Virus record (IMG/VR): IMGVR_UViG_3300030385_001449
Span: 1 to 31,352 of that record
Origin: a virus
DNA length: 31,352 nt
Reading direction: 5' to 3' (one strand)
Made by a program: the position numbers and the translations under genes. Under the pieces are notes generated by a model, which was not told where the DNA came from, made no database searches, and saw only the letters and a program-made list of their open reading frames with translations. Within the stretch, counting starts at the first letter, position 1; each line of letters opens with the position of its first letter. Shown here piece after piece: positions 304 through 28,595 of the stretch.

Positions 304-1304
304 AATTAAAACACTTAGATTTATTCAGTGGTATCGGTGGCTTCAGTCTCGGGCTTGAAGCCACGGGTGGCTTTGAAACAGTGGCGTTCTGTGATATTGA
401 AGAATATCCAAGAAAGGTTCTGCAAAAACATTGGCCATATGTTAAACAATATAAAGATATAAAGGAGTTGAATTATGACAGACTTAAATCAGACGGACTT
501 GTTCCAATCGACATCATCTCAGGGGGATACCCGTGCCAACCGTTCTCGGTTGCAGGAAAACAAAAGGGCGTTGAAGATCCGAGACACCTCTGGCCAGAGT
601 ATTTTAGACTTGTCAAAGAATGTAGGCCGACTTGGGTTATTGGAGAAAACGTTAGTGGACACATTAAACTCGGTCTCGACTCCGTTATCGAGGACTTGGA
701 AAGTGAAAATTACTCCGTCCGACCGTTTAGTATTTCAGCTTCGAGCGTCGGCGCCAACCACCAAAGAGAAAGAATCTGGATTGTGGCTTACTCCGAGCGC
801 AACGACAATTTCAACGAGGAGCAAAGAGTCAATGGAGAAGAGAAAGAAATACCGGGAGAGTATAGGAAGAACGACAGTTCCCCCAGGGAATCTAGCCGAG
901 CAAGTGCAGTACGGAAAACCAACAACGGAGATGTGGCCGACACCGAGAGCATCGGCAGCGATGGCAGAGAAGACAGAGAATATTCAAAAGAGGGGAACAC
1001 AAAGAGGGAAGTTGGAGGAGTCAGTAGCCAAGTGGCCAACTCCGACAGCGAGGGATTGGAAAGACAGTGGAAAAGCCGTAATCAATTCGGATCGAAATTT
1101 ACTGCCACAGAAAGTGGCGAGGAGCGACAAGGATCAATGGATCAAGGGTGGTGGAGCGTTGAACCCGATGTGGGTCGAGTGGCTCATGGGATACCCAAGC
1201 GAGTGGACCGACTTAAATCACTTGGAAACAGTCTCGTCCCCCAAATCCCCTACTACATCGGACAATCAATCCTTAAAACGATGGCCGACACCATCATCGA
1301 CTGA
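300..1304 (+). CDS. C5 cytosine-specific DNA methyltransferase (Dcm-type)
   Basis: This 334-aa enzyme should transfer a methyl group from S-adenosylmethionine to carbon 5 of cytosine. Visible motifs: I, DLFSGIGGF (7-15); IV, GGYPCQPFS (75-83) with catalytic Cys79; VI, ENV (116-118); VIII, QRERIW (155-160); IX/X, VEPDVGRVAHGIP (287-299) then RLKSLGNSLVPQ (304-315). Residues 165-285, where the target-recognition domain should lie, are Glu/Arg/Ser/Asn-rich and look disordered. This same stretch is read in the +1 frame as another protein. The recurring VADT/VANS/MADT tetrads (212, 245, 328) coincide with WPTP motifs of that second frame. It may protect phage DNA from host restriction or mark it; no cognate nuclease is visible. 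Confidence 0.92.
   Translation: MKLKHLDLFSGIGGFSLGLEATGGFETVAFCDIEEYPRKVLQKHWPYVKQYKDIKELNYDRLKSDGLVPIDIISGGYPCQPFSVAGKQKGVEDPRHLWPEYFRLVKECRPTWVIGENVSGHIKLGLDSVIEDLESENYSVRPFSISASSVGANHQRERIWIVAYSERNDNFNEEQRVNGEEKEIPGEYRKNDSSPRESSRASAVRKTNNGDVADTESIGSDGREDREYSKEGNTKREVGGVSSQVANSDSEGLERQWKSRNQFGSKFTATESGEERQGSMDQGWWSVEPDVGRVAHGIPKRVDRLKSLGNSLVPQIPYYIGQSILKTMADTIID
462..467 (+). promoter_or_regulatory. internal Shine-Dalgarno site for the overprinted gene
   Basis: AAGGAG lies inside the methyltransferase coding sequence, 7 nt before ATG 475, which opens the +1 frame. A full-consensus ribosome binding site at the right distance is direct support for independent translation of the inner gene. 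Confidence 0.7.
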
Positions 1305-15053: not shown

Positions 15054-15221
15054 ATGATGGCTAAGAAAAATTCCCCAACTATAATTACGGTTCCTTCTTA
15101 TCCGAGTGCTGGTCGCCCTTTAACTGGTGAAGAGTGGAAATTTGTGCAAGAAAATATAAAAAATTTTAAAAAAACATCAATGAAGGATCGAAAAAGTAAT
15201 GGCAAAAAAGAAAAAGTCTAA
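15054..15221 (+). CDS. small hypothetical protein, 55 aa
   Basis: ATG 15054 (or the adjacent ATG 15057) follows AAGGAAG. The product starts MMAKKNSPTIITVPSYPSAG, continues RPLTGEEWKFVQENIKNF and ends Lys-rich. The first gene of the plus operon, it overlaps the next gene by 23 nt. The PSYPSAGRPLTGEEW stretch looks conserved rather than random, but I cannot name a family. Confidence 0.6.
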   Translation: MMAKKNSPTIITVPSYPSAGRPLTGEEWKFVQENIKNFKKTSMKDRKSNGKKEKV

Positions 15222-15891
15222 AGAAGAAACTATCGAGTTCCAAGCTATTCGACCTTTCGGTCCAACAATAATTAGAGGAACACTCCCTAAACATTTAATT
15301 GAATTGATGGATACTAAAGCAACAGAAATGTTAGAGGATGAAAAACTTTCAAAAGAGTTTGATCATTCAGGATCACTAGCAGGAAATGTTAAACAAGAGG
15401 TACGTTTCCCTACTGAATGGATGGATACAAATGCATTTCTTCCAATGATAGGATTTATAGGAGAGATGGTTAAATCTTATATTTCTATTCCTCCTGCTAA
15501 TGAAACTATCAAACCTGAATTTGTAGGTAAATTGGTTATGGAATCTATGTGGGTAGTTGCTCAATATGCAGGGGATTTTAATCCTTTTCATATTCATGAA
15601 GGCCAACTATCAGGTGTGTTTTATTTACGGGTTCCTCCAAGCTTACCTAAAGAGTACGCAAAAGAGGATCATTATCCTACAGTTGGTGATATATGTTGGT
15701 TCGATGGAAGAGCATCAACATTTAGTGGGCATAAATTTCAACACTCGCCTACAGTTGGTGATATATTTTTATTTCCAAATTGGTTAGCACATGGTGTCTA
15801 TCCTTTTAGAACTCCTAATGAAGAAAGACGATCCGTGTCGTTTAATCTTCACCTTATTAAAAAAGAAGAAGAAAAACAATTATCGAAATGA
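15199..15891 (+). CDS. putative 2OG-Fe(II) oxygenase (TIGR02466-like)
   Basis: A 230-aa protein with the double-stranded beta-helix signature of 2-oxoglutarate/iron oxygenases. FNPFHIHEGQLSGVFYLRVP (128-147) gives metal-ligand candidates His131/His133, TVGDIFLFPNWLAHGVYPF (185-203) gives the distal His198, and ERRSVSFN (209-216) supplies the Arg that binds 2-oxoglutarate. These enzymes hydroxylate proteins, small molecules or nucleic acids using O2; the substrate here is unknown. TVGDI occurs twice (161-165 and 185-189), an apparent internal duplication. Its TGA overlaps the next start (ATGA). Confidence 0.85.
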   Translation: MAKKKKSKEETIEFQAIRPFGPTIIRGTLPKHLIELMDTKATEMLEDEKLSKEFDHSGSLAGNVKQEVRFPTEWMDTNAFLPMIGFIGEMVKSYISIPPANETIKPEFVGKLVMESMWVVAQYAGDFNPFHIHEGQLSGVFYLRVPPSLPKEYAKEDHYPTVGDICWFDGRASTFSGHKFQHSPTVGDIFLFPNWLAHGVYPFRTPNEERRSVSFNLHLIKKEEEKQLSK

Positions 15892-16163
15892 TTGATATTG
15901 ACAAGACTCCAATGGTCCGTGTGACGTGGTTGGATGCACGTGATACGGAAACAGGGTGGCTTGAAATAAAAGATATTCTAAAAGCCCCTTTGGCGTTATG
16001 CCAGGAAGTTGGTTGGTTGGTCGTGAACAATGAGGAAAAGGTCGTGATCATGCGATCCTTTTGCTTGGACAAGGGAGACAATAACGGTGGTGGTGCTATC
16101 GCTATTCCAAAAGGATGGATAAAAAAAATAGAATATTTAAAAATAGATTATGCAACACAATAA
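15888..16163 (+). CDS. conserved small phage protein, 91 aa
   Basis: Contains VTWLDARDTETGWLEIKDI, then APLALCQEVGWLV and GGAIAIPKGWIKKIEYLK. The pattern matches a small protein that I recall recurring in marine phage genomes without known function (not checked). It is predicted to be a compact beta-rich domain with two Cys residues. Overlapping starts and stops on both sides (ATGA upstream, 14 nt downstream) tie it to the flanking oxygenase genes, so it may act with them. Confidence 0.75.
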   Translation: MIDIDKTPMVRVTWLDARDTETGWLEIKDILKAPLALCQEVGWLVVNNEEKVVIMRSFCLDKGDNNGGGAIAIPKGWIKKIEYLKIDYATQ

Positions 16164-16683
16164 GGAAACAGCATACGTTCAATACGTAGATAATTTTTTT
16201 AGTATTGAAACATTAGAATCATTACAAGAAACACTTATTAATTTAAAATATACCGAAGTAAAAAATGAAGAAGGACAACATTATGGCAAAAGACACACTT
16301 TTCCTCTCCATCAATTTAAAAATGATCCGGTCTTACAACGTATTAAAGAATTCTTTTTTCCTTATACAGATCTAGAACCAATATCTATTCATGCACATTT
16401 ACGCCACAATCAAGGAGAACCTAAAGTACATATCGATACTGATAAAGGAAACATAGCGAATTTTCTTTTCTTTGTTAAGGGAGAACCATTATTAAATAAT
16501 GGAACGGGGTTTTTTATAGGTAGTAAACTTTCCTCACATATAGGATTTGTAGAAAACCGGGCTTTATTTTTTAATGGCAGTAAAATATGGCACACGGACT
16601 TACAGGGATTAGGGGAAAGTTCCCCACGCTATACGTTAAATATTTTTTATAGGCAAAAGGTTTCTAAAGATGCCGGGTTCTAA
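16150..16683 (+). CDS. putative 2OG-Fe(II) oxygenase, 177 aa
   Basis: HxD iron motif VHIDTD with His94 and Asp96, distal His148 in FFNGSKIWHTD, and a 2-oxoglutarate Arg candidate at 160 (SPRYTLNIFYR) give a complete facial triad. The layout resembles the prolyl-hydroxylase-like branch of the superfamily and differs from the previous oxygenase, so this is not a simple recent duplicate. No clear Shine-Dalgarno is seen; translation probably depends on coupling to the upstream gene, with which it overlaps by 14 nt. Confidence 0.82.
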   Translation: MQHNKETAYVQYVDNFFSIETLESLQETLINLKYTEVKNEEGQHYGKRHTFPLHQFKNDPVLQRIKEFFFPYTDLEPISIHAHLRHNQGEPKVHIDTDKGNIANFLFFVKGEPLLNNGTGFFIGSKLSSHIGFVENRALFFNGSKIWHTDLQGLGESSPRYTLNIFYRQKVSKDAGF

Positions 16684-17461
16684 AATATTTATTGGAACTC
16701 CCTGTTATGGAGGAATGCTGACAATTAACTATTTTGAAAGTTGTATTCGATTAATAGAAGAAGCAGCCAAAAAAAAAATAGGATTACAATTTGGTACCAT
16801 TGGAAATGAGTCTTTGATAACGAGGGCTCGTAACACACTAGTTCAATTGTTCATGGATCATTCTGACTATACTCATTTACTTTTTATAGATGCTGATATT
16901 GGATTTAGTGAAAGAACTGTTATGCGAATGTTAGAACTTGATGAAGAAGTAGTGACAGGAGTATATCCACGAAAGACTATTGATTGGACAAAAGTTATAC
17001 GAAAAGTAAAAGAAAAACCTGATATTAAAGAAAATGAATTATTAGCTTCTTCATTACAATATAATCTTAATGTAAAAAATCCAGAACATGTAGAAGTAAA
17101 AAAAGGATTTATAGAAGTCTTAGACGGCGCTACAGGATTTATGTTGATAAAAAGACAGGTCTTTGAAAAAATGGCTAAAGCTTACCCTGAATTAAAATTT
17201 AAATCGGATCAACATTTAAATGATCCCCACGATAAAACATTTAATTATCATGATAATTCAAATTGGAATTATGCTTTTTTTGATACCACGGTTGAACCAG
17301 AGACTAAAAGATACTTGTCAGAGGACTATGCTTTCTGTAGACTATGGCAAAAAATTGGTGGGACCGTATATGCTGACATTACGAGTGGGCTGACGCACTA
17401 TGGGACTTATGCCTTTAAAGGCAATGTAGGTACTCAATTCTTGCCACCGAAGAAGAAATAA
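16670..17461 (+). CDS. GT-A (family 2-like) glycosyltransferase
   Basis: A 263-aa protein with KIFIGTPCYGGM at the N-terminus, ESLITRARNTLVQLFMD, and a DxD metal/nucleotide-sugar motif in HLLFIDADIGF (about 69-79), as in GT-A-fold glycosyltransferases. It lacks membrane segments, so it likely acts in the cytoplasm. Placed among oxygenases, it could add sugar to hydroxylated residues of a virion protein or to another product; this is inference. It overlaps the previous gene by 14 nt. Confidence 0.85.
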   Translation: MPGSKIFIGTPCYGGMLTINYFESCIRLIEEAAKKKIGLQFGTIGNESLITRARNTLVQLFMDHSDYTHLLFIDADIGFSERTVMRMLELDEEVVTGVYPRKTIDWTKVIRKVKEKPDIKENELLASSLQYNLNVKNPEHVEVKKGFIEVLDGATGFMLIKRQVFEKMAKAYPELKFKSDQHLNDPHDKTFNYHDNSNWNYAFFDTTVEPETKRYLSEDYAFCRLWQKIGGTVYADITSGLTHYGTYAFKGNVGTQFLPPKKK

Positions 17462-17477
17462 TTTAGTATGTTGTCTT

Positions 17478-19358
17478 ATGCAATTAACCGATTTAAAATT
17501 TCAACCAGGTGTAGATAAACAAGATTCTCCTTATGCGGCAGGAGATGATCGACGTTATATCGACTCTCAATTAGTAAGGTTTCATTACGGAAAACCTGAA
17601 CGTTGGAGAGGGTGGACATATCTTCCAAACCCTAACGAGACTGTTATTGGCGTGGTCCGTGATACGCATTCCTGGTTTAGTTTAAATGGAACCAGATATC
17701 TTGCTTTAGGAACCGATAGAAAATTATATATATTAGAGGGTAGCGGTCTTTATGATATTACACCTATTCGAGAAACAGCTAGTTTAACAAATCCTTTTAC
17801 GACAGTAAGTGGTAGTCCTATTGTGACTGTAACCGATGCATCGCATGGAGCAATATTAGGCGACTTTGTTACATTTGATGACACTACCACCAACAATGTT
17901 GTGGACGGCATAGAATTTAATAATGAATTTGAAATTACGGAAATTGTTGATGCTGGCTCTTATAAAATAACATATTCTTCTAATGCTACAGGATCAACGG
18001 CTAGTGGTGGGGGATCAGTAACGGCAACTTATCAAATTTCTATTGGACCTGCTACATCTACCTATGGATATGGTTGGGGTGTTTTAACATGGGGATTAAG
18101 TACATGGGGCACCGCTAGGTCTTCATCAAGTGTAACTCTTAATGCTCGTCAATGGTCATTAGATAATTTTGGCGAAGATCTTGTTGCTACTGCTTTAAAT
18201 GGAGGTACTTATCAATGGGATACTTCAGGAGGGGTTGCAACTAGGGCCGTGAGCCTTGGTGTAACAGCCCCGGTAGCTTCTCGTTTTTCTTTAGTATCGT
18301 CCGATACAAGACATTTATTTTTATTTGGAACATGCACTACGGTCACAGATAGCACTACTCAAGATGATTTATTTTTTAGGTTTTCCGATCGTGAAAGTTT
18401 GACGCAGTGGGCACCGAAAGCGACAAATGAAGCGGGATCATTGCGTATTGCTGATGGTTCCCGGATCATAGGAGCAGTAACATCAACAGGTCAAATCCTA
18501 GTATGGACTGATCAATCCTTGCACGGTATTCAATTTGTAGGAACGCCTTTTACATTTGGTCAACGACAACTTGGAGCTAACTGTGGATTGATAGCACAGC
18601 ATGCAGCCATTGATGTGAATGGTAAGGCTTTTTGGATGGGTGATGATGCATTCTATATGTACGATGGTGTAGTTAAAAAAATGCCATGTTCCGTTCAAGA
18701 TTATGTATATGATGATTTAAGTTTCACAAATAAAAATGATATTGCTTGTGGCATTAATCCTGAATTTAATGAAATTATGTGGTATTATCCCTCAGGCAGC
18801 GCTACACAAATTGATAGAGTTGTTGTCTATAATTATTTAGAAAATACTTGGTATACTACAACATTAGGACGTACAAGTTATCTTGGAAATTACACTTTTG
18901 AAGATCCTATAGCTACCCAATATAATGCTGCTTTAGTGGCTAATGCCACTACAAGTACAGGGGTAACAAGTACTCCTTATGGTGTAACAGTAGGAGCTTC
19001 CTATGTATATAATCAAGAGGTGGGCAATAACCAGGCAGACGGAACAGCTTTAACGGCTTCTCTCACAACCGGATCAATTGAAATTGCGGATGGAGATCAA
19101 TTTATGTCAGTGAGCAAATTTGTTCCTGACTTTACTTCCCTAACAAATAATGTAGCCATTACTTTAACATTGGAGGATTATCCTCAATCAACAACAAGTC
19201 AAACCACTACAGGAAATGTTAGTAGCACTACGACTAAACTTGATATAAGAGGAAGAGGACGATCAGTAAAACTAGCTTTTGCCAGTGATACAGTGGGAGA
19301 TACAAACTGGAGATTAGGATCTATGAAACTTCAACTTAGACCGGACGGAAGAAGATAA
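17478..19358 (+). CDS. putative tail protein, P22 gp10 / packaged-DNA stabilisation type
   Basis: A 626-aa beta-rich protein. The N-terminal QLVRFHYGKPERWRGWTYL and the following G-x-R-Y-L-A-L-G-T-D-R-K-L-Y-I pattern (about 72-87) fit the tail-hub proteins of short-tailed phages (P22 gp10, functionally like T7 gp12). The middle has propeller-like repeats (YGWGVLTWGLSTWG, DLVATALNGGTYQWD). It should sit at the portal exit and hold the DNA in. It is placed away from the other connector genes, which lie on the minus strand at 28.6-30.4 kb. Confidence 0.72.
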   Translation: MQLTDLKFQPGVDKQDSPYAAGDDRRYIDSQLVRFHYGKPERWRGWTYLPNPNETVIGVVRDTHSWFSLNGTRYLALGTDRKLYILEGSGLYDITPIRETASLTNPFTTVSGSPIVTVTDASHGAILGDFVTFDDTTTNNVVDGIEFNNEFEITEIVDAGSYKITYSSNATGSTASGGGSVTATYQISIGPATSTYGYGWGVLTWGLSTWGTARSSSSVTLNARQWSLDNFGEDLVATALNGGTYQWDTSGGVATRAVSLGVTAPVASRFSLVSSDTRHLFLFGTCTTVTDSTTQDDLFFRFSDRESLTQWAPKATNEAGSLRIADGSRIIGAVTSTGQILVWTDQSLHGIQFVGTPFTFGQRQLGANCGLIAQHAAIDVNGKAFWMGDDAFYMYDGVVKKMPCSVQDYVYDDLSFTNKNDIACGINPEFNEIMWYYPSGSATQIDRVVVYNYLENTWYTTTLGRTSYLGNYTFEDPIATQYNAALVANATTSTGVTSTPYGVTVGASYVYNQEVGNNQADGTALTASLTTGSIEIADGDQFMSVSKFVPDFTSLTNNVAITLTLEDYPQSTTSQTTTGNVSSTTTKLDIRGRGRSVKLAFASDTVGDTNWRLGSMKLQLRPDGRR

Positions 19359-19525
19359 TGGCTAAAATAACAATTACACGTTTCCCTAACGCCACACCTC
19401 AATATGAACCAAGTCAATTTGATCAAATGATTCGTTTACTCGAACAATTAATTTTAAATTTAAATACTTCTTATTCTCAAGATATAGAAGATAAATCTGC
19501 GGGAAGGAGCTGGTACCTTGGCTGA
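19358..19525 (+). CDS. small virion-associated or hypothetical protein, 55 aa
   Basis: ATG 19358 shares its A with the upstream TAA (TAATG). The product, starting MAKITITRFPNATPQYEPSQ, has a helical FDQMIRLLEQLILNLN segment and ends SAGRSWYLG. It overlaps the next gene by 8 nt. Sitting between two structural genes, it may be a small tail or head accessory protein; no family is recognised. Confidence 0.6.
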   Translation: MAKITITRFPNATPQYEPSQFDQMIRLLEQLILNLNTSYSQDIEDKSAGRSWYLG

Positions 19526-19892
19526 TACCTTTAAAAACACTGGTGTAGATATGACCACTACCGGTCCAACAACCATTTACACGGTTCCGACAGCAGCTCC
19601 TGGTATTACAGGAACTCCTCCTATTTTTCCAACCACGGGGGTAGTCAAGTCCATTATTGTGTGCAATGATTCAGCAAACACCACCGAGTATACCATAGAA
19701 TGGACGGACAGCAGTGCTTCGGCAACCTATAAAATTACTAATGATAAGACTATTGCTACCGATACGACCTATGAAGTTTTATTACAGCCTCTGGTTCTGG
19801 AGGAATCAGACCTCATTAAAATTACAGCAAATGCAGCCAATCAAATTCATATTACTTTAAGCGTGCTGGAAATAACAAAAGGGGATTTGTAA
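19518..19892 (+). CDS. small beta-sandwich virion protein, 124 aa, TTG start
   Basis: Thr/Ile/Val-rich, with alternating strands throughout (TTIYTVPTAAP, VVKSIIVCNDSA, TYEVLLQPLVLEESD, IKITANAANQIHITLSVLEI). The pattern resembles small decoration or fibre proteins of marine phages. The start is TTG 19518, supported by AAGGAG (19503-19508) at 9 nt; the next ATG (19548) would cut off the first ten residues. Its TAA ends at 19892, which is also the first base of the next, unusual gene. Confidence 0.7.
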   Translation: MADTFKNTGVDMTTTGPTTIYTVPTAAPGITGTPPIFPTTGVVKSIIVCNDSANTTEYTIEWTDSSASATYKITNDKTIATDTTYEVLLQPLVLEESDLIKITANAANQIHITLSVLEITKGDL

Positions 19893-20485
19893 TCGACCTT
19901 CATTCTTTATTTATTACTCCTATCTTTTCTATAAATTTAGCAGGCTATGAAAATCTTACTGAAGTTATAAAAAATATTCAAGAGAAAGACCCTACAAGTA
20001 TTAAAGGAAAAAGTACGGATGGTGGTTGGCATAGCCATGATTTTTTACATGAAGATAAGAAATTTGCTAAAATAAAAACAGAGATAATTGAAATGACGAA
20101 AGAGACAATGAGTCACTTATTCATCATAGATCAAATAGTCCCTGTAATTACGGGTATGTGGGCCGTGGTCAATGGTCCAGGAAGCAGTAATCGTTTACAT
20201 AGTCACCCCTATAATAATATGTCTGGGGTCTTTTATCTACAAGTGCCTAAAGATAGTGGGGCTCTTGTTTTTCATGATCCTCGTCCTCAAAGCGAAGTTC
20301 TAGCTCCTCCTAAAAAACCAGGGGAAAGCATCCACACCTCTTCTCGAGTTTCTTGGAAACCTAAGCAAAATGATATATTGTTTTTCCCCTCATGGCTTAC
20401 TCATGAAGTAGAGAAAAATAATTCACAAGAAGAAAGAATTGTGATAAGTTTTAATATTGAATTAAAAAGGAGAAACAATGGCTAA
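19892..20485 (+). CDS. putative 2OG-Fe(II) oxygenase with apparent AUC start
   Basis: Residues encoded from ATG 20093 (130 aa) hold the catalytic core: RLHSHPYNNMSGVFYLQVP (His103/His105), ILFFPSWLTHEV (His171) and EERIVISFN (Arg182), as in TIGR02466-type oxygenases. The same frame runs on upstream with family-like N-terminal sequence (LHSLFITPIFSINL, DGGWHSHDFL) to 19892 but has no ATG, GTG or TTG. The upstream stop reads TAATC where sister junctions read TAATG, and AAAGGGGA lies 6-7 nt before ATC. Either AUC is used as a start or the start has been lost and a truncated protein is made from 20093. Numbering here assumes AUC as residue 1 (197 aa). Confidence 0.7.
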   Translation: MDLHSLFITPIFSINLAGYENLTEVIKNIQEKDPTSIKGKSTDGGWHSHDFLHEDKKFAKIKTEIIEMTKETMSHLFIIDQIVPVITGMWAVVNGPGSSNRLHSHPYNNMSGVFYLQVPKDSGALVFHDPRPQSEVLAPPKKPGESIHTSSRVSWKPKQNDILFFPSWLTHEVEKNNSQEERIVISFNIELKRRNNG

Positions 20486-20735
20486 AATCATAGAAGAAGC
20501 AAAAGTCTTGGGGGAAATTGATGCTGGTGATGGTCGTATGGTTCCTCATATAAGATGTCGTTCAGAGACTACAATTACTAATACAGAAACAAATCAAGAA
20601 TATGATTCAGAGGAACACGCTACTAATGATGTAGCTGATCCTGGAACAGAAACGAAAGAAGAACACATTAGACGTGATGTAGAAATATTTGCTCCATCAC
20701 TGGCGGATATGGTAGGGGAAGTTCCTAAAGATTAA
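20478..20735 (+). CDS. small conserved phage protein, 85 aa
   Basis: An acidic protein with LGEIDAGDGRMVPHIRCRSE, TITNTETNQEYDSEEHA and a C-terminal RRDVEIFAPSLADM. I recall the arrangement from marine phage structural regions, where the function is unknown (not verified). A strong ribosome site (AAGGAG, 20467-20472) lies 5 nt before the ATG. The start overlaps the oxygenase gene by 8 nt; the stop overlaps a convergent gene by 4 nt. Confidence 0.7.
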   Translation: MAKIIEEAKVLGEIDAGDGRMVPHIRCRSETTITNTETNQEYDSEEHATNDVADPGTETKEEHIRRDVEIFAPSLADMVGEVPKD

Positions 20736-20971
20736 GCACTACAGCATTCAGATTCAGCCTCATTACCATCTACGTTTAAACTTATATTTTTTTCTTCGTC
20801 AGTTAAGGATCGTATGACAGAAGAATTCTCACACCCGCACCCATTCTTATGATCTTTTAATTCTTTCTCTAGTCTTAAATTATCTCTCTCCGTAGCTAAT
20901 AAACGTTCGTGATAGCGGCTCACCTTGTCAGCGAGGACAGCTATAGCCTTCAATACTTCCTGATTTTCCAT
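20732..20971 (-). CDS. isolated coiled-coil Cys-rich protein, 79 aa
   Basis: The N-terminal two thirds form a strong helical/coiled-coil segment (LADKVSRYHERLLATERDNL). The C-terminal part carries cysteines as GCGC and ECCSA, suggesting metal binding or disulfides. The start at 20971 is supported by AGGAG six nt upstream; a longer frame to 21034 has no such site. It is the only minus-strand gene between two plus-strand blocks and overlaps the neighbouring convergent gene by 4 nt. It may be a moron-like insertion or a regulator; no family is recognised. Confidence 0.65.
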   Translation of the reverse strand: MENQEVLKAIAVLADKVSRYHERLLATERDNLRLEKELKDHKNGCGCENSSVIRSLTDEEKNISLNVDGNEAESECCSA

Positions 20972-21076
20972 TTTTTTCTCCTGATTTAAATTTTTGGGTG
21001 AGAACCAATTTAACCATATTTCGTTCCAAAGCAATAGAACTTTTTAAAATTGTTTTCTTGACAAGGAAATTGTGAT

Positions 21077-21721
21077 ATGGAAGGAACAGAAAAAAGAATG
21101 ACACACATAGACAAAACAACCATTTTTACAGAGGAGGTATATTCTTTTACGATGCCCAATCACGAAAAATGGAGTAAAAAAATTAAGGATATAATACTCG
21201 TAGAAAACAATAAAGAACTACATGGGCACACAACAATTCCCGAAGAGGCCTGTAACGTTAAAGCTAGAAGAACAGCATGGGACTCCCATTTTCGGTATCC
21301 TTCCATAGGATCCTTAACTCACGAATTAGCAGGGATTTTAGGGGGTTTGATTGAAAGAGAAAATTTTGATGCGCCTAATCTAAGAGTACAGGACTCCTGG
21401 ATTAATTGGTATGAAAAAAATAACCACACAGTTCCCCACCATCATGGAAATCACTTATCTGTAGTCTATTTTGTAGACGTGGAAGATTCAAAGGCAGATT
21501 TTTTATTTTTAAGGCAGGATAGGTTTCAACTAGTAAAAAAAGAAGGGAATAAGACACTTCATAACAATATTAAATCCGTGGAAGTGAAAAACGGAAGTGT
21601 ACTGGTATTTAATGGAAGTTTAACGCATGCCGTCACTGCTAACTTATCAGACAGTACTCGCATAACTTTCGCTGTAAATTATGCAGTAGAGTACTATGAT
21701 GAAAAAAGAAACGATTATTAA
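21077..21721 (+). CDS. putative 2OG-Fe(II) oxygenase, 214 aa
   Basis: DSWINWYEKNNHTVPHHHGN (106-125) gives the His cluster 121-123, VLVFNGSLTHAV gives distal His184, and STRITFAVNY gives Arg195. This is the arrangement seen in putative 2OG oxygenases of the TIGR02466/PF13759 kind. It shares the DSWIN motif with the 22549 gene and the WIN motif with the 23088 gene, so these three look like paralogues. It is the first gene of the second modification block. ATG 21077 is preceded by AAGGA; ATG 21098 is an alternative start. Confidence 0.82.
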   Translation: MEGTEKRMTHIDKTTIFTEEVYSFTMPNHEKWSKKIKDIILVENNKELHGHTTIPEEACNVKARRTAWDSHFRYPSIGSLTHELAGILGGLIERENFDAPNLRVQDSWINWYEKNNHTVPHHHGNHLSVVYFVDVEDSKADFLFLRQDRFQLVKKEGNKTLHNNIKSVEVKNGSVLVFNGSLTHAVTANLSDSTRITFAVNYAVEYYDEKRNDY

Positions 21722-22562
21722 AATGAAACCAAACCTTCATTGTATAGAGGGAGGGGTGGGAAAACATCTACAGTTCACGGCTCTCTTTGAAGAACTTGTA
21801 AATAAATATAATCACCAGTTAGTAATCAGTTCGGGTTATCCTGAACTGTTTAATTTTTGTCCTCAAGTAGCAGATTCTAGATTCAGGAATGATAGCTTTC
21901 TTGATAGTTGCCACCCCTTTTATAGTAAATACGATAATATTTTTTTCCACGATCCTTATAGAAGTTCCTTTTTAAAAGGTGAAACTCATGTTGTGGAAGA
22001 ATGGGCCAATCAATATGAAATAAGTGTTAATGATTTAAGACCCTCATTCGACATCAATAAAAGAAAAGAGAAAATGCTGTTGCCTCATATAAAGGGATTA
22101 AATGACTTTATTCTATTACAATTTACGGGAGGCCAGGGGATAGAAGGAAATACATATGATTTTTCTAATGCCGGCAGAAACTATAATCATGGTCAGGAAC
22201 TTATTTATCTCTTAAAGGAAAAATTTCCCGCGCATATTATTATTGTTTTCAGTCATTCTAATGAAAGGGAAGAATTTGTGGGGGAAACTAAATTTAATGA
22301 TCAAGAAGGAGTTCCTCTCTTTAAAACCAGAGAAGATTTTATGATTCTAGCCAAACACTGTAGTTTTTTTATTGCCATAGACAGTGCCTTGCACCATATG
22401 GGATCTAATAGACAATTTGGCAAGAGGGGGATTGTTCTGTGGGGAGCAACTTCTCCAGATAGATTTGGATACAAAGAAAATATAAACATGAAGTCTGAGT
22501 ATCCTTACTGTGTACAAATATCCCCTGAAAAAATAATGGATAAAACAGATGACATTAAATAA
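21696..22562 (+). CDS. GT-B, family 9-like glycosyltransferase
   Basis: IEGGVGKHLQFTALFEEL near the N-terminus resembles the acceptor-side loop of heptosyltransferase-like enzymes. FFIAIDSALHHMGSNRQFG then IVLWGATSPDRFGY (residues about 225-258) matches the GT9 nucleotide-sugar site (D-S/T-x-x-H-x-x-x with a following G-x-T-x-P). GT9 enzymes transfer heptose or related sugars, typically to lipopolysaccharide core. Here it is embedded among oxygenases. The start is uncertain: ATG 21696 or 21699 overlaps the previous gene, while ATG 21723 would follow its stop by one base and better match the family's N-terminus. Confidence 0.75.
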   Translation: MMKKETIIKMKPNLHCIEGGVGKHLQFTALFEELVNKYNHQLVISSGYPELFNFCPQVADSRFRNDSFLDSCHPFYSKYDNIFFHDPYRSSFLKGETHVVEEWANQYEISVNDLRPSFDINKRKEKMLLPHIKGLNDFILLQFTGGQGIEGNTYDFSNAGRNYNHGQELIYLLKEKFPAHIIIVFSHSNEREEFVGETKFNDQEGVPLFKTREDFMILAKHCSFFIAIDSALHHMGSNRQFGKRGIVLWGATSPDRFGYKENINMKSEYPYCVQISPEKIMDKTDDIK

Positions 22563-23091
22563 CGAAATAGAGGAAATAGTTTTAAAAAAAATAAGTGTAT
22601 ATTCTACATCCATAGAGAATATCCACCTTTTAGAGACAGTAGCTTCTTTCATTGAAACCAATAAACATAAATTTACTGAAAGAACCTGGAACTGCAATAG
22701 TCAAACTTCTGTAAAAATATCTAAGAATATTTTATACGATATAGAAGAATTTAATTATTTAACTGCCGAGTTAGAAAAAATTATAAAAAGGTTTTTATAT
22801 AAAGTTTTTAATAAAAATATTCCTTTTATGATTGTTGATTCTTGGATTAATGTTTTAGGAGAAAACGGTTATCAAGAACCACATATACACGGGGATGTTA
22901 TATCAGGGGTTTTATATTTAACTGAAGATAATTCAGAGATTGAATTTATTGTTTATCCCGAAGACCAAAGAAAAAAAGTAATTCCCAAAAAAGGTGATGT
23001 TTTATTGTTTGACGGAACCACCTATCATAGGGTGGTAGAATCAAAACACGAAAGAATGTCACTGGCTTTTAACTTTAGGACATTAAAATGA
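22549..23091 (+). CDS. putative 2OG-Fe(II) oxygenase, 180 aa
   Basis: Carries DSWINVLGENGYQEPHIHGD (97-116) with His112/His114 (Asp116 nearby), VISGVLYL, GDVLLFDGTTYHRV with distal His160, and HERMSLAFNF with Arg169. The core is typical of the putative oxygenases described for the neighbouring genes and shares DSWIN with the 21077 protein. It overlaps the glycosyltransferase by 14 nt and joins the next gene through an ATGA overlap. Confidence 0.83.
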   Translation: MTLNNEIEEIVLKKISVYSTSIENIHLLETVASFIETNKHKFTERTWNCNSQTSVKISKNILYDIEEFNYLTAELEKIIKRFLYKVFNKNIPFMIVDSWINVLGENGYQEPHIHGDVISGVLYLTEDNSEIEFIVYPEDQRKKVIPKKGDVLLFDGTTYHRVVESKHERMSLAFNFRTLK

Positions 23092-23702
23092 AAAAATTGC
23101 AAATTATATCTGGGAGATTTGTAAATAAGTATTTTATATCCAAGAAATGCGTAAATGATTTAAATAAAAAATATGAAAAAATAAAAATTAATTTAGGTTC
23201 TTTCGGTCCTAAATTGGCAGGACGATTAGAGTCCGAACTGCAATTTACAGCTTCTCTTCAATCCACAGCTGCGTATAAACAAATTGTCAAGTGTATTGAA
23301 GATTATATGAAGGATCAATCACGATTCTTTATTATTTCAGATGGGCCTAGAAATATTGAAATAATTAGTTGCTGGATCAATGATATGGTTATGGGGGAAT
23401 ATAATCCTCCCCATATACACCATGACGGAAATGGGTGGTCTACAGTTTTGTTTCTTAAAATCCCTGAATTTATAAATGACGCCAAAGATCCCCATAAATT
23501 TAAAGATGGTCAATTGGGATTTATTGGTGTTAATGGATCAACATCGTACTATCATACCCCTAAAGTTGGTGATTTTTACATCTTTGAAGCAAGACACCAA
23601 CATTTTGTATTGCCTTTTAAAACAAAAACTCAAGGTGAAATTAGAAGGTCCATGTCTTTTAACTTTATACTTGTCGATCCCAAAGAGAAAAAAAATGTTT
23701 AA
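23088..23702 (+). CDS. putative 2OG-Fe(II) oxygenase, 204 aa
   Basis: CWINDMVMGEYNPPHIHHDG (95-114) gives His109/His111 plus a possible HxD (His111/Asp113), KVGDFYIFEARHQHFVLPF gives distal His170 or His172, and IRRSMSFNFIL gives Arg186/187. An insertion (about 125-158) separates the two halves of the core compared with the 22549 protein, so substrate specificity probably differs. Its start is coupled by ATGA to the upstream gene and its 3' end overlaps the next gene by 8 nt. Confidence 0.82.
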   Translation: MKKLQIISGRFVNKYFISKKCVNDLNKKYEKIKINLGSFGPKLAGRLESELQFTASLQSTAAYKQIVKCIEDYMKDQSRFFIISDGPRNIEIISCWINDMVMGEYNPPHIHHDGNGWSTVLFLKIPEFINDAKDPHKFKDGQLGFIGVNGSTSYYHTPKVGDFYIFEARHQHFVLPFKTKTQGEIRRSMSFNFILVDPKEKKNV

Positions 23703-24381
23703 TAAAAAAATAACATTTTGTGCAATCAATAAAGAGATGTTGGATGTTTGGCCACATCCTCTTCCCGCTTCCCGATTCATTCCCGAAGAATATAAAAAAT
23801 TACCTAGATTCACCGATGACAATCAACACAGGCCAACTTTAAAAACTTGCATGCCTTTTTTAGATTCAATGACAGCGGGCTACATTATTCCTTTTGATCA
23901 AGATTATCTAGTAGATCCCGTGGAAAAGGATTTTAGCGTTGTTCCCGCTAATAAAGAACAAAGTGACTTTGGATTTCATAATAAGACACAATTACCAAAA
24001 GAATGGCACAAGAAAACAGGAGAGAATGCAGGTAAATTTCACAACAAATGGTTAATAAAAACTCCCCCAGGATACAGTTGCTTATTTATAAAACCTCTAA
24101 ATAGACTAGAGGAACGATTTGAAATTATAGCGGGTATTGTGGATACCGATACATACATAAATACTATTAATTTTCCTTTTATTTTAAGAAAAAGAGAGAA
24201 ACAGTTTCTAATAAAAAAAGGGGAAGCCATGGTTCAGGTCATTCCTTTTAAAAGAGAATCATGGACAATGTGGAGTGGTTTTTATTTAGAAAAACTTCAT
24301 TCCAAAACCATTAGTTTATTACAAAGTGAATGGGTAGATAAGTATAAAAAAATGTTTTGGCATAAAAAAAGTTTTAAATGA
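23695..24381 (+). CDS. DUF6065-like protein, 228 aa
   Basis: Contains TPPGYSCLFIKPLNRLEERF, IVDTDTYINTINFPFILRK and GEAMVQVIPFKRESW, which match the pattern I associate with DUF6065, a family of unknown activity. The N-terminus has WPHPLPASRFIPEEYKKLP. ATG 23695 lies after AAAGAGAA and overlaps the previous stop; the longer open frame back to 23476 only shadows the upstream oxygenase. It lacks an obvious HxD triad. Its place between two oxygenases suggests a substrate-binding or partner role in the same pathway (inference). Confidence 0.75.
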   Translation: MFNKKITFCAINKEMLDVWPHPLPASRFIPEEYKKLPRFTDDNQHRPTLKTCMPFLDSMTAGYIIPFDQDYLVDPVEKDFSVVPANKEQSDFGFHNKTQLPKEWHKKTGENAGKFHNKWLIKTPPGYSCLFIKPLNRLEERFEIIAGIVDTDTYINTINFPFILRKREKQFLIKKGEAMVQVIPFKRESWTMWSGFYLEKLHSKTISLLQSEWVDKYKKMFWHKKSFK

Positions 24382-24905
24382 TAAAAATACAAGATTATAT
24401 AAAATGTTATGAAAACATGATAAGCAAAGAATTGCGTGAAAAAATTATAAAAGACCCCGGTGATTTTAAAAGGGCTATGATACGTGATGGGGACATATCC
24501 CAAGACAGAAACTGCTACGAGTCAATTTTAAATAAAAAATTTGAGAATTCCATCTATGAAATTGTGGGGAAAATACTGCAAAAATACGGAGATGATTTTA
24601 CTCACTTTTCCACTGGTTTAAATACAGAAGACACTGGTTATCAACATTTACTTTATAAAGGGAGTGAAAAAGGGGAATATAGATTACACGTAGATCATAG
24701 TGATTTAAATCCTAGGGTTTTGAGCTGTTCAATAATATTGAATGATGATTATACGGGAGGGGATTTTTCTTTTTTTAAGGGGGAACATATAATTAATAAA
24801 AAAGCTGGTAGCGCAGTTGTATTTCCCAGCAACTTCTGTTTTCCTCATGCCGTAACTCCTATTACAAACGGGGATCGACATGCGATCATTACATGGATTC
24901 ATTAA
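24378..24905 (+). CDS. prolyl-4-hydroxylase-like 2OG-Fe(II) oxygenase, 175 aa
   Basis: A clear P4H-type core: EYRLHVDHSD (100-109) with His104/Asp106, SIILNDDYTGGDFSFF (118-133), FPHAVTPITNGDRHAIITWI with distal His157 and Arg167. YTGGDFSFF matches the GGxL/F motif after the second core strand. Members of this branch hydroxylate prolyl or other residues of proteins, but the substrate cannot be told here. It starts in an ATGA overlap and its stop lies inside a 12-bp tandem repeat that also forms the next start. Confidence 0.87.
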   Translation: MIKIQDYIKCYENMISKELREKIIKDPGDFKRAMIRDGDISQDRNCYESILNKKFENSIYEIVGKILQKYGDDFTHFSTGLNTEDTGYQHLLYKGSEKGEYRLHVDHSDLNPRVLSCSIILNDDYTGGDFSFFKGEHIINKKAGSAVVFPSNFCFPHAVTPITNGDRHAIITWIH

Positions 24906-24916
24906 TGGATTCATTA
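24893..24916 (+). repeat. 12-bp tandem duplication at a gene junction
   Basis: ATGGATTCATTA occurs twice in tandem (24893-24904 and 24905-24916). It spans the TAA of one oxygenase gene and supplies two in-frame ATGs for the next, creating the TAATG overlap. It probably arose by replication slippage. Confidence 0.85.
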
Positions 24917-25420
24917 ATAGTTAAAAAACATTTTCTTAGTAAAGAATTAATTGATGAGACTATGAAAATAGTTAATGATAATTTGTCAAATAATGTATGG
25001 AAAACAAATTCAAGTTGGGATGAGGATCTGGTGGGAAAAGGAAGCAAAGTTTTTATTTTAAATCTAGTTAATTATGATAAAATTCGTGAAAAATTAGACA
25101 GTGCTTTTAAGCAATCAAATATTTTGCCCAAAGACTACATTTTCATTTCTAATCTTTACCTTTGGCAAACAGGAAGTCACATAACCTTTCACAGTGATTC
25201 GGTTTACGATGCTTCTTGTACAATATATTTAAATGAATTTTGGGACCGCAACTGGGGAGGTCTTTTTTTATGGGAAGATGAAAATAAGAAAATTCACGCT
25301 GAAGCTCCTGAGTTTAATAAAATGGTTTTTAACCCTAAAAATATCTTACACGCTGTGTCGATGATTGCCCCAACAGCGGAAGCCCCAAGAATATCAATTC
25401 AATGTTTTTTTAAATTCTAA
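24905..25420 (+). CDS. prolyl-4-hydroxylase-like 2OG-Fe(II) oxygenase, 171 aa
   Basis: HITFHSD gives His96/Asp98 (numbered from ATG 24905), WGGLFLWEDE the conserved GGxL strand, KMVFNPKNILHAVSMIAP the distal His149, and EAPRISIQCFF the 2-oxoglutarate Arg162, so the active site is complete. I choose ATG 24905 because it forms a TAATG overlap with the upstream stop; ATG 24893 is in frame and would add MDSL. No clear ribosome site is present, so coupling is likely. It is the last gene of the block and overlaps a convergent gene by 4 nt. Confidence 0.86.
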   Translation: MDSLIVKKHFLSKELIDETMKIVNDNLSNNVWKTNSSWDEDLVGKGSKVFILNLVNYDKIREKLDSAFKQSNILPKDYIFISNLYLWQTGSHITFHSDSVYDASCTIYLNEFWDRNWGGLFLWEDENKKIHAEAPEFNKMVFNPKNILHAVSMIAPTAEAPRISIQCFFKF

Positions 25421-26556: not shown

Positions 26557-27286
26557 TGTACTTTAACCTCCAACCATTTCCTGAATCATAATATATCAGA
26601 GAAACTGCTGCACTGTTAGTAGAAATTATCATGTCGGCTGCATCTCCTTGAACTTTTTCAGATCCTCCATCAACGGTAATGTTATTGGTTCCCGCATTGC
26701 CATCACCGTCAATTATCTTTACCTGCATTCCAATTGTGGGAGAGGCGGGTAATGTTATGGTAATTGCTCCGCTTGAACAATCACAGATAATATTATCGCC
26801 GTCTGAGGCTGTGTAAGGGGAGTCGCCAGTTGCTTTTTCCACCCATGTTTCGCCTAATCCAGCTAAAGAAAAAATATCGTACCAGTTAGTACCATCAGTA
26901 GCAACTAAACGGTACTTACCATTTACAATACTCATAGTATTGCCTGTGGCTCCTAATCGTGCTGTTATGGCCGCACCACCACTAATATTATTGTAAATTC
27001 CATAAGTTTTTTGTGTAGCGGGAAATTGAATTGTCTGAGCTGCAGAAACAGTCCCTGAAAAAATTAATTGACTTTGTCTAGCTTGGTTGTTGGCCGCGGT
27101 ATCGGGTCCGTCGGCATTGGTTAATGTTATCCCTGTTCCTGTTGTAAGAGCAGGTACTGCATATACACCAGCGATAGCGAATTCAAAAACCTGGGAAAAG
27201 TTATTGTTGGTAATGGTCCCCCAAGTGCCAGAATTTTCTCCCGTTACTTGTAGCTCCGTTCTAAGACCAGTTGAATAAGTTACCAT
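26549..27286 (-). CDS. tail-fibre protein, 245 aa
   Basis: The N-terminus, STGLRTELQVTGENSGTWG, followed by VFEFAIAGVYAV and TGITLTNADGPDTAA, is typical of marine phage fibre proteins that begin with a repeated Thr/Gly-rich shaft. The C-terminal half (GDSPYTASDGDNIICDCSSG, ITITLPASPTIGMQVKIID) looks like a beta-prism or triple-beta segment. It probably forms the shaft to which the collar-domain protein attaches. Preceded by GGAGA and a candidate promoter. Confidence 0.8.
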   Translation of the reverse strand: MVTYSTGLRTELQVTGENSGTWGTITNNNFSQVFEFAIAGVYAVPALTTGTGITLTNADGPDTAANNQARQSQLIFSGTVSAAQTIQFPATQKTYGIYNNISGGAAITARLGATGNTMSIVNGKYRLVATDGTNWYDIFSLAGLGETWVEKATGDSPYTASDGDNIICDCSSGAITITLPASPTIGMQVKIIDGDGNAGTNNITVDGGSEKVQGDAADMIISTNSAAVSLIYYDSGNGWRLKYND

Positions 27287-27302
27287 TTAATCTCCTAAAT
27301 AA

Positions 27303-27331
27303 GTTTTATTGATTATTACTAAGTTTGTCAA
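27303..27331 (-). promoter_or_regulatory. candidate promoter for the tail-fibre genes
   Basis: On the minus strand a perfect -35 box TTGACA (27331-27326) is followed after 17 nt by TAAAAC (27308-27303), a 4/6 match to the -10 box. It falls in the only non-coding gap (27287-27336) of this stretch, just upstream of the fibre gene. The weak -10 lowers confidence. Confidence 0.4.
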
Positions 27332-27336
27332 AACTT

Positions 27337-28134
27337 TTACGCAGCCTTAGTTACTTCTACCCAACTAATAGAACTGTTTGAATCATCAACAACATTCCAA
27401 CTAATAATGTCAAGATCTCCAGTAGAGACTGTACCTCCAACGCCTGTTAAAGTCAAGGTGGAGCTTGCTTCAGTACTTGGATTACCAGGAGAGGCTGTTG
27501 CACTTACCCCTGTTAAAGCATAGGAAGATGTTTGCGTTGCGTCTCCTACTGCTGATGTTGCAGCTTGTCCTGTAGGAGTAGCAATAGCTCCTGCTGCTGG
27601 GGTTACATCGCCTTCGGATGAAGTGAGAGTCGTCCCTGTAACACTAATATTTTGATCCGTGGTGATAGTTTCTTCCCCTAAAGAGGAAGTCAGTCCCGCC
27701 GCTGTCAACGTAACAATACTACCGGCACTCGCAACAGCATCACCAGCAGTAGATGTTAATAAAGTTCCCGTAGGAGCTACTGTCGGACTAGTTGTTACTA
27801 CTACATCCCCCGTACTTGCATCTAATTCTGGTTCTGAAGCCGCAACAATGGTTATTGTTGCATCAGCCGTAATTGAGTATGTTCCAATGGAACTTGTTGC
27901 ACTTACGCCAGTTACAAAAATAGAAGTAAGAACGTCACCTACACTAGATGTAGAGCCTTGTCCCGTTACTGTAATATTAATATCGGCACTCGCAACAGCA
28001 TCACCAGCAGTAGCTGTAGCGCTATCCCCTGTTAAAGCGTAGGAACTTGTTAAGGTTCCCCAAAGATTATCCCCCCAGCCAATCTCTGTTCCTGTGGCTT
28101 GATTATACTCTCGCCCCCAGCCTGAGACAGCCAT
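27337..28134 (-). CDS. repetitive Ser/Thr/Ala-rich virion protein, 265 aa
   Basis: After a short WGREYN/GWGDNLWG N-terminus, residues about 31-245 consist of roughly ten imperfect repeats of about 21 aa with the pattern (V/L)TG-x-(S/T)-(A/T)-(T)-S-x-x-GD-x(4)-A, each probably a pair of beta strands. The C-terminus is WVEVTKAA. This design suits an elongated fibre or Ig-like decoration protein. Its high Ser/Thr content makes it a plausible glycosylation or hydroxylation target, though that is speculation. Some repeats are identical at DNA level. Confidence 0.72.
   Translation of the reverse strand: MAVSGWGREYNQATGTEIGWGDNLWGTLTSSYALTGDSATATAGDAVASADINITVTGQGSTSSVGDVLTSIFVTGVSATSSIGTYSITADATITIVAASEPELDASTGDVVVTTSPTVAPTGTLLTSTAGDAVASAGSIVTLTAAGLTSSLGEETITTDQNISVTGTTLTSSEGDVTPAAGAIATPTGQAATSAVGDATQTSSYALTGVSATASPGNPSTEASSTLTLTGVGGTVSTGDLDIISWNVVDDSNSSISWVEVTKAA
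27723..28013 (-). repeat. two exact 30-bp direct repeats inside the repetitive virion gene
   Basis: The same 30 nt (plus strand begins CGGCACTCGCAACAGCATC and ends AGCAGTAG) occurs at 27723-27752 and 27984-28013. Both copies encode the same GDAVASA-containing part of the repeat unit. Identity at silent positions points to recent duplication or gene conversion. Confidence 0.85.
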
Positions 28135-28145
28135 GATTTATTCTC

Positions 28146-28595
28146 CTATGCGATTCTTAGAATTGCAGCAGTTGCTTCGGCAGCAGGGAACGTAATTGTA
28201 AATGTTCCTGCGGTTGAAGTTTTTACACCACCAAAATCTAAAACACAGACAGATGCATTGGTTGTTAAACCTGTAACAGTTGAACTATTGTAAATTACAG
28301 CAGCTTGTGCTGAAATAGTTGCAGTTGTAAATGATAAGTCTGGTGAAAAATCACACACAGCCGTATCAGTTGATAATACAGGTGTTACTGATGTTAATGC
28401 TCCGCCGCCTTCTGCATAAGTGCCTGAGGCTCCGACTTCATCGGTTTGTTGAAAAACAGTTGTTGCTTTTCCTAATGTCGCTTCACTATCATATAGTGCT
28501 AGTTTAAAAGCGTTCCCTGTCGTGCCCGTAAAATCGTGTAGGGCTTTCAGGATCTCCACTTTAAAACTGTTGCATACAGCTTGAACTATTGCCAT
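28146..28595 (-). CDS. small phage virion protein, 149 aa
   Basis: Begins MAIVQAVCNSFKVEILKALH, with FKLALYDSEATLG and a C-terminal VCVLDFGGVKTSTAGTFTI ending in FPAAEATAAILRIA. I recall this all-beta protein as widespread in marine phage structural modules, commonly called a hypothetical tail or decoration protein. It lies between the repetitive protein and the connector genes, and each gene in this stretch has its own GGAGA-type ribosome site. Confidence 0.78.
   Translation of the reverse strand: MAIVQAVCNSFKVEILKALHDFTGTTGNAFKLALYDSEATLGKATTVFQQTDEVGASGTYAEGGGALTSVTPVLSTDTAVCDFSPDLSFTTATISAQAAVIYNSSTVTGLTTNASVCVLDFGGVKTSTAGTFTITFPAAEATAAILRIA

Follow-up and report, generated by a model that had tools for sequence, protein, structure and literature searches.

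A phage cytosine-5 DNA methyltransferase predicted to be split between two overlapping genes

M.EcoHK31I is an alpha/beta heterodimer of specificity YGGCCR, and the gene for its small subunit lies in the +1 frame inside the gene for its large subunit. Both it and M.AquI are two-polypeptide cytosine-5 DNA methyltransferases (C5-MTases) (PMC3404938, PMC3439449). The large subunit of M.EcoHK31I carries motifs I to VIII and X and was assigned the predicted target recognition domain (TRD), with motif IX found on the small subunit, and in M.AquI, a natural C5-MTase split, motifs IX and X are both located in the small subunit (PMC3404938). In the multispecific C5-MTases of Bacillus phages, tandem TRDs are housed within one enzyme (PMC8936443). 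The viral locus described here very probably encodes a split phage C5-MTase from two overlapping genes, with one product, alpha, as the predicted catalytic subunit and the other, beta, as the predicted contributor of motif IX and of target recognition. The two-polypeptide C5-MTase as such is already known from M.EcoHK31I, and the beta family is already known as phrog_1008.

The window, i.e., the whole stretch of 31,352 nucleotides that was analyzed (positions 1 to 31,352 of IMG/VR record IMGVR_UViG_3300030385_001449), is part of a 33.6-kb virus record. The alpha open reading frame (ORF) spans 300 to 1304 (334 amino acids) and the beta ORF spans 475 to 1446 (323 amino acids, +1 relative to alpha); both, and all of the features located below within them, are on the plus strand, and inspection of the ORFs placed the shared span at 475 to 1304. 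The beta ribosome-binding site, AAGGAG, is at 462 to 467, 7 nt 5′ of the ATG at 475, and the beta frame is closed upstream by an in-frame TGA at 469 to 471. A first-pass annotation, made from the sequence of the window, had described just such a long open +1 frame with its own AAGGAG at 7 nt and had paired the motifs of the two frames base for base; both descriptions held, with alpha VAxS/VADT lying under beta WxTP and alpha EPDVGRVAHGIP under beta LNPMWVEWLMGYP. The alpha VAxS/VADT series is what WPTP codons yield in the other frame. Elsewhere in the window, at least seven genes resembling 2OG-Fe(II) oxygenases were found within about 10 kb (15199 to 25420), at 15199, 20093, 21077, 22549, 23088, 24378, and 24893, interspersed with genes for a DUF6065 protein and, possibly, a glycosyltransferase.

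Alpha matched PF00145 with an E value of 2.6e-43, over profile positions 2 to 233 of 324 only, the match stopping in the linker 3′ of motif VIII, and it matched M.HhaI only as far as M.HhaI residue 174. Alignment of alphas located motif I (DLFSGIGG) at 318 to 341, motif IV with the catalytic Cys (GGYPCQPFSVAG) at 522 to 557, motif VI (GENV) at 642 to 653, motif VIII (HQRERIW) at 759 to 779, and motif X (RLKSLGNSLVPQIPYYIGQSI) at 1209 to 1271, with PCQPFS invariant in 24 aligned alphas. The alpha chain is a member of the C5-MTases by its motifs I, IV (PCQ), VI (ENV), VIII, and X. The annotation had credited this frame with every C5-MTase motif, and in this it was mistaken: the TRD and motif IX between motifs VIII and X are absent from the alpha chain, and it is the +1 frame that holds motif IX. 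The linker between motifs VIII and X (792 to 1157) is unconserved and reads as a shadow of the beta modules; its identity in the alpha frame was 0.23 versus 0.17 for shuffled codons, yet it contained 0 stops where 127 were expected. In those viral loci that yielded both elements, the GN of alpha motif X was 65 nt past the start of beta motif IX. Alpha belongs to phrog_363 and beta to phrog_1008, both of which are labelled DNA methyltransferase.

The expected number of stops in the +1 frame was obtained by shuffling synonymous codons within each alpha gene of 31 non-redundant viral loci. Across the overlap, a mean of 8.4 stops was expected and none was observed in 31/31 loci; the +1 frame is open far beyond chance. 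Its amino acid identity over alpha motifs IV to VIII was 0.65, compared to 0.32 under codon shuffling. In the reverse test with beta kept constant, 119 and 127 alpha-frame stops were expected for the two main regions and 0 were observed. Alpha synonymous divergence was 0.80 of expectation in codons 1 to 58, i.e., 5′ of beta, fell mostly to 0.27 to 0.7 inside the overlap (with single sparse linker windows up to 0.85), was lowest over motif IX at 0.17 to 0.19, and was back to 0.93 past the usual end of beta. The single-coding tails of beta past the alpha stop were under purifying selection, as in the 120 codons compared between L009 and L019 (dN/dS of 0.23). At the Shine-Dalgarno, the alpha Lys (K codon 55) was AAG in 20/24 cases versus 35/122 for the Lys residues upstream. 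The 475 to 1304 span is therefore dual coding with selection on both frames, as the first-pass annotation had proposed. Its suggestions to look for stops in the +1 frame of relatives, for synonymous-site constraint, and for stand-alone homologues of the +1 protein led, respectively, to no stops in 31/31 loci, to a strong reduction of synonymous change across the overlap, and to the copies in L100 and L121 described below.

Beta matched phrog_1008 with an E value of 2.9e-27. Its N-terminal domain (TSGQ...LGLLEK...TWKxK...FQL; 523 to 783) lies over alpha motifs IV to VIII and is conserved far beyond the alpha shadow; no counterpart of it was recognized within single-chain enzymes. Comparison of beta modules delimited WxTP modules 1 (784 to 933), 2 (934 to 1032), and 3 (1033 to 1158), followed by motif IX (1159 to 1197), an extra WxTP module after motif IX that is mostly past the alpha stop (1282 to 1443), and the tail. 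In L004, a segment of the beta tail past alpha (about 1740 to 2211), TPKELSEKSGIEYTTVEHWFRRGDYF, resembles a DNA-binding helix-turn-helix.

The beta segment was assigned as motif IX because its in-frame homologue in L118, located in the alpha frame just 5′ of motif X, was aligned by phmmer to motif IX of M.HhaI (KLHPRECARVMGYP). That alignment covers M.HhaI KLHPRECARVMGYPDSY...GNSVV, and in both proteins 16 residues separate the final P of motif IX from GN. The beta profile also matched, with a probability of 97.2 and an E value of 3.9e-11, the single-chain enzyme gp71 of Mycobacterium phage WillSterrel across the WxTP modules and motif IX; phrog_1008 matched the C-terminal half of gp71 (E value of 1.3e-57), and phrog_363, the alpha family, matched it over its whole length. 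On these comparisons with L118, the single-chain phage enzymes, and gp71, the identity of beta motif IX is established at the sequence level, and beta is homologous to the segment of a normal C5-MTase running from the TRD to motif IX. Most of beta was therefore most likely not overprinted de novo. Of the deeply conserved overprinted gene that had been suggested, the widespread and conserved dual coding stands. AlphaFold2 gave no usable fold for beta alone (pLDDT of 60 for the window beta and 51 for a one-module beta), a Foldseek search of the window beta model against the PDB returned nothing at an E value below 0.001, and the beta profile had no sequence match among solved structures. The proposed TRD role therefore derives from position and homology rather than fold. 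The window beta also gave weak phmmer matches to designed helical-repeat proteins, which were judged to be due to chance.

Among about 200 betas, the number of WxTP modules ranged from one to six with a median length of 41 amino acids, and the modules sorted into discrete families in 106 arrangements. Modules are shuffled between related phages: loci 98 to 100% identical in upstream DNA differed by the gain, loss, or reordering of whole modules. L037 has one module more than L023, L054 is without two modules found in L002, and L029 and L074 differ in the order of two modules. The alpha linker changes along with the modules and remains open. Against a TRD role, some betas carry modules past motif IX, where a canonical TRD would not lie. 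The modules behave as exchangeable cassettes, presumably of specificity, and a cassette reading is the natural one given the tandem TRDs known in C5-MTases of Bacillus phages. At somewhat less than an even chance, beta may be a combinatorial specificity subunit in which each WxTP module of ∼41 amino acids reads one target, so that phages would alter the methylated sequences by module gain, loss, and reordering. Because the modules are open in two frames at once, the alpha linker would then be rewritten with each exchange.

In the mechanism proposed for the split enzyme, alpha (300 to 1304) would fold into the SAM-binding and catalytic domain with motifs I to VIII and X, while beta (475 to 1446), translated in the +1 frame presumably from its own ribosome-binding site, would bring the part of the small domain made up of motif IX and the WxTP array in the place of the TRD. 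The two would assemble as a heterodimer, for which M.EcoHK31I and M.AquI are precedents, and the assembled enzyme would methylate phage DNA, with the WxTP modules likely setting the target specificity. Since no restriction gene was recognized by eye among the ORFs neighboring alpha and beta, the methylation would probably serve to protect phage DNA from host restriction.

Other explanations of the +1 frame were weighed against this split enzyme. Where one frame holds conserved motifs, the other is bound to show some similarity, and the +1 frame could on that ground be a passive shadow of conserved methyltransferase sequence. This is refuted by the selection tests, as the +1 identity (0.65 versus 0.32 when shuffled) and the lack of stops (0 versus 8.4) far exceed what shuffled codons give, synonymous change is reduced exactly across beta, and the beta tail is under purifying selection where it does not overlap; the chance that a shadow accounts for the frame is negligible. 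It is also very unlikely that ribosomes enter the +1 frame past motif VIII and leave it again ahead of motif X, producing one full-length enzyme, with beta not being a separate protein. The parts are indeed collinear with those of a single-chain enzyme and the frame boundaries vary between phages, but beta has its own selected Shine-Dalgarno, its N-terminal domain is conserved 5′ of any shift point, its own stop comes shortly past motif IX in most loci, and stand-alone copies of it exist in L100 and L121.

The first-pass annotation had seen in the +1 product a possible methyltransferase partner or regulator. A beta acting as a regulator or structural partner, and not as the recognition subunit, would accord with its N-terminal domain, which has no recognized counterpart in single-chain enzymes, and with the modules that can come after motif IX. 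Against it, the conserved C5-MTase motif IX is missing in alpha and present in beta, and the modules sit at the TRD position in single-chain relatives, making such a role very unlikely. By these sequence features, the best explanation of beta is as the half of the enzyme that alpha lacks, not as a regulator; the partner part of the earlier suggestion is thus retained, most likely as the TRD and motif IX subunit of a split enzyme, and the regulator part is not.

Of the 211 matches to the beta profile in the loci searched with it, 206 overlapped an alpha in the +1 frame. The pair was found in marine viral contigs, in Paenibacillus, Lacticaseibacillus, Burkholderia, and enterobacterial phages, and in plasmid records, and further in contigs that are attributed to numerous bacterial phyla and that may represent prophages or contamination. 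Paenibacillus phage Redbud has the inner gene annotated as "g50 internal gene", whereas BcepC6B and ESSI2 have no annotation for it. Five layouts (A to E) were told apart by the frame holding the modules, motif IX, and motif X. Layout A, that of the window, has motif IX in beta and motif X in alpha. In layout B, seen in L118, L119, L288 to L290, and actinophage contigs, motifs IX and X are in alpha and the modules in +1. Layout C has a stand-alone beta downstream (L100, 3116 to 3910; L121, 3043 to 3444). In layout D the modules and motifs IX and X are all in the alpha frame (WillSterrel and L215); the cultured Mycobacterium phages WillSterrel and Martik and the prophage prophiGD91-2 have motifs I to VIII, LPTP modules, and motifs IX and X in a single frame. 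In layout E, found in Vash (gp32/gp33) and phiBT1, alpha has motifs I to VIII only, and the +1 ORF has the modules and motifs IX and X. Layouts A, B, D, and E could be interconverted by a few frameshifts. L104 was considered as a fused enzyme and rejected; its alpha frame has motif IX but no motif X and its modules are still in +1, and a frame error is therefore likelier than fusion.

Several individual loci were also of note. In the phiBT1 locus (L370, 786 to 1833; record positions 27120 to 28167), gene 9.1 is annotated as a DNA methylase, perhaps inactive, and an unannotated +1 ORF (904 to 1833 in L370) harbors the modules together with motifs IX and X; the enzyme is therefore probably split, not dead. 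L121, a plasmid record of Paenibacillus bovis, has a short stand-alone beta that consists of one WPTP module and motif IX, has its own GGAGG-like ribosome-binding site, and sits after a complete alpha/beta pair; no relatives of this beta were found in the viral-contig search. In L100 (2254 to 3910), a complete beta lies 3′ of alpha, modules and motif IX are gone from the overlapping +1 frame, and ARTAPEAP has replaced GRVAHGVP in alpha, a hint that it is mainly the overlap that preserves this segment of alpha. L098 (1237 to 3141) holds a tandem of two different alpha/beta pairs, with PCQPFS in one and PCQDIS in the other. In L085 (1276 to 2219), from marine phage KM23-C739, beta is intact, while a frame change near 1398 to 1533, either real or a sequencing error, interrupts alpha.

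Long same-strand overlaps with identifiable domains in both frames are rare, and here both products appear to belong to a single enzyme. A natural series, made up of the single chain, motif IX located in alpha or in beta, motif X located in beta, and the stand-alone beta, makes the origin of the overlapping pair directly testable. The split would also explain phage "DNA methyltransferase" genes that seem truncated or inactive, such as gene 9.1 of phiBT1. If the modules are specificity cassettes, they would constitute a short-module system for the study of DNA reading by C5-methyltransferases and of the ways in which phages hold their own against host restriction.

Paper searches for this overlap returned split-enzyme literature only, without a description of it, and no description was found in the literature searched of its breadth, the movable frame boundary, the WxTP array, or the exchange of modules in two frames. 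The first-pass annotation knew of no description of the pair; the gene itself had been called by phage annotators before ("g50 internal gene" and phrog_1008), and the phrog_363 and phrog_1008 label does not record overlap, split, or subunit role. Among single-chain enzymes, WillSterrel gp71 and Martik gp71 share with this locus the catalytic motifs, the WxTP/LPTP modules, motif IX, and the order of these parts, but in a single reading frame throughout. The multispecific C5-MTases of Bacillus phages are likewise single chains in a single frame and are likened to the WxTP array by their tandem arrangement. The locus resembles M.EcoHK31I in having motifs I to VIII and X in the large subunit and motif IX in the second polypeptide, and in the nesting of the beta gene in the +1 frame of alpha; it differs in that the TRD of M.EcoHK31I is predicted in the large subunit, whereas alpha here is without a conserved TRD and beta has the module array, a point against the present reading, and the likeness drawn is one of layout. 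With M.AquI it shares a motif IX in the smaller polypeptide, as in beta, although motif X is in the small subunit of M.AquI and in alpha here. The M.AquI layout is matched instead by the Streptomyces phages Vash and phiBT1, in which alpha has motifs I to VIII and the +1 ORF has the modules along with motifs IX and X.
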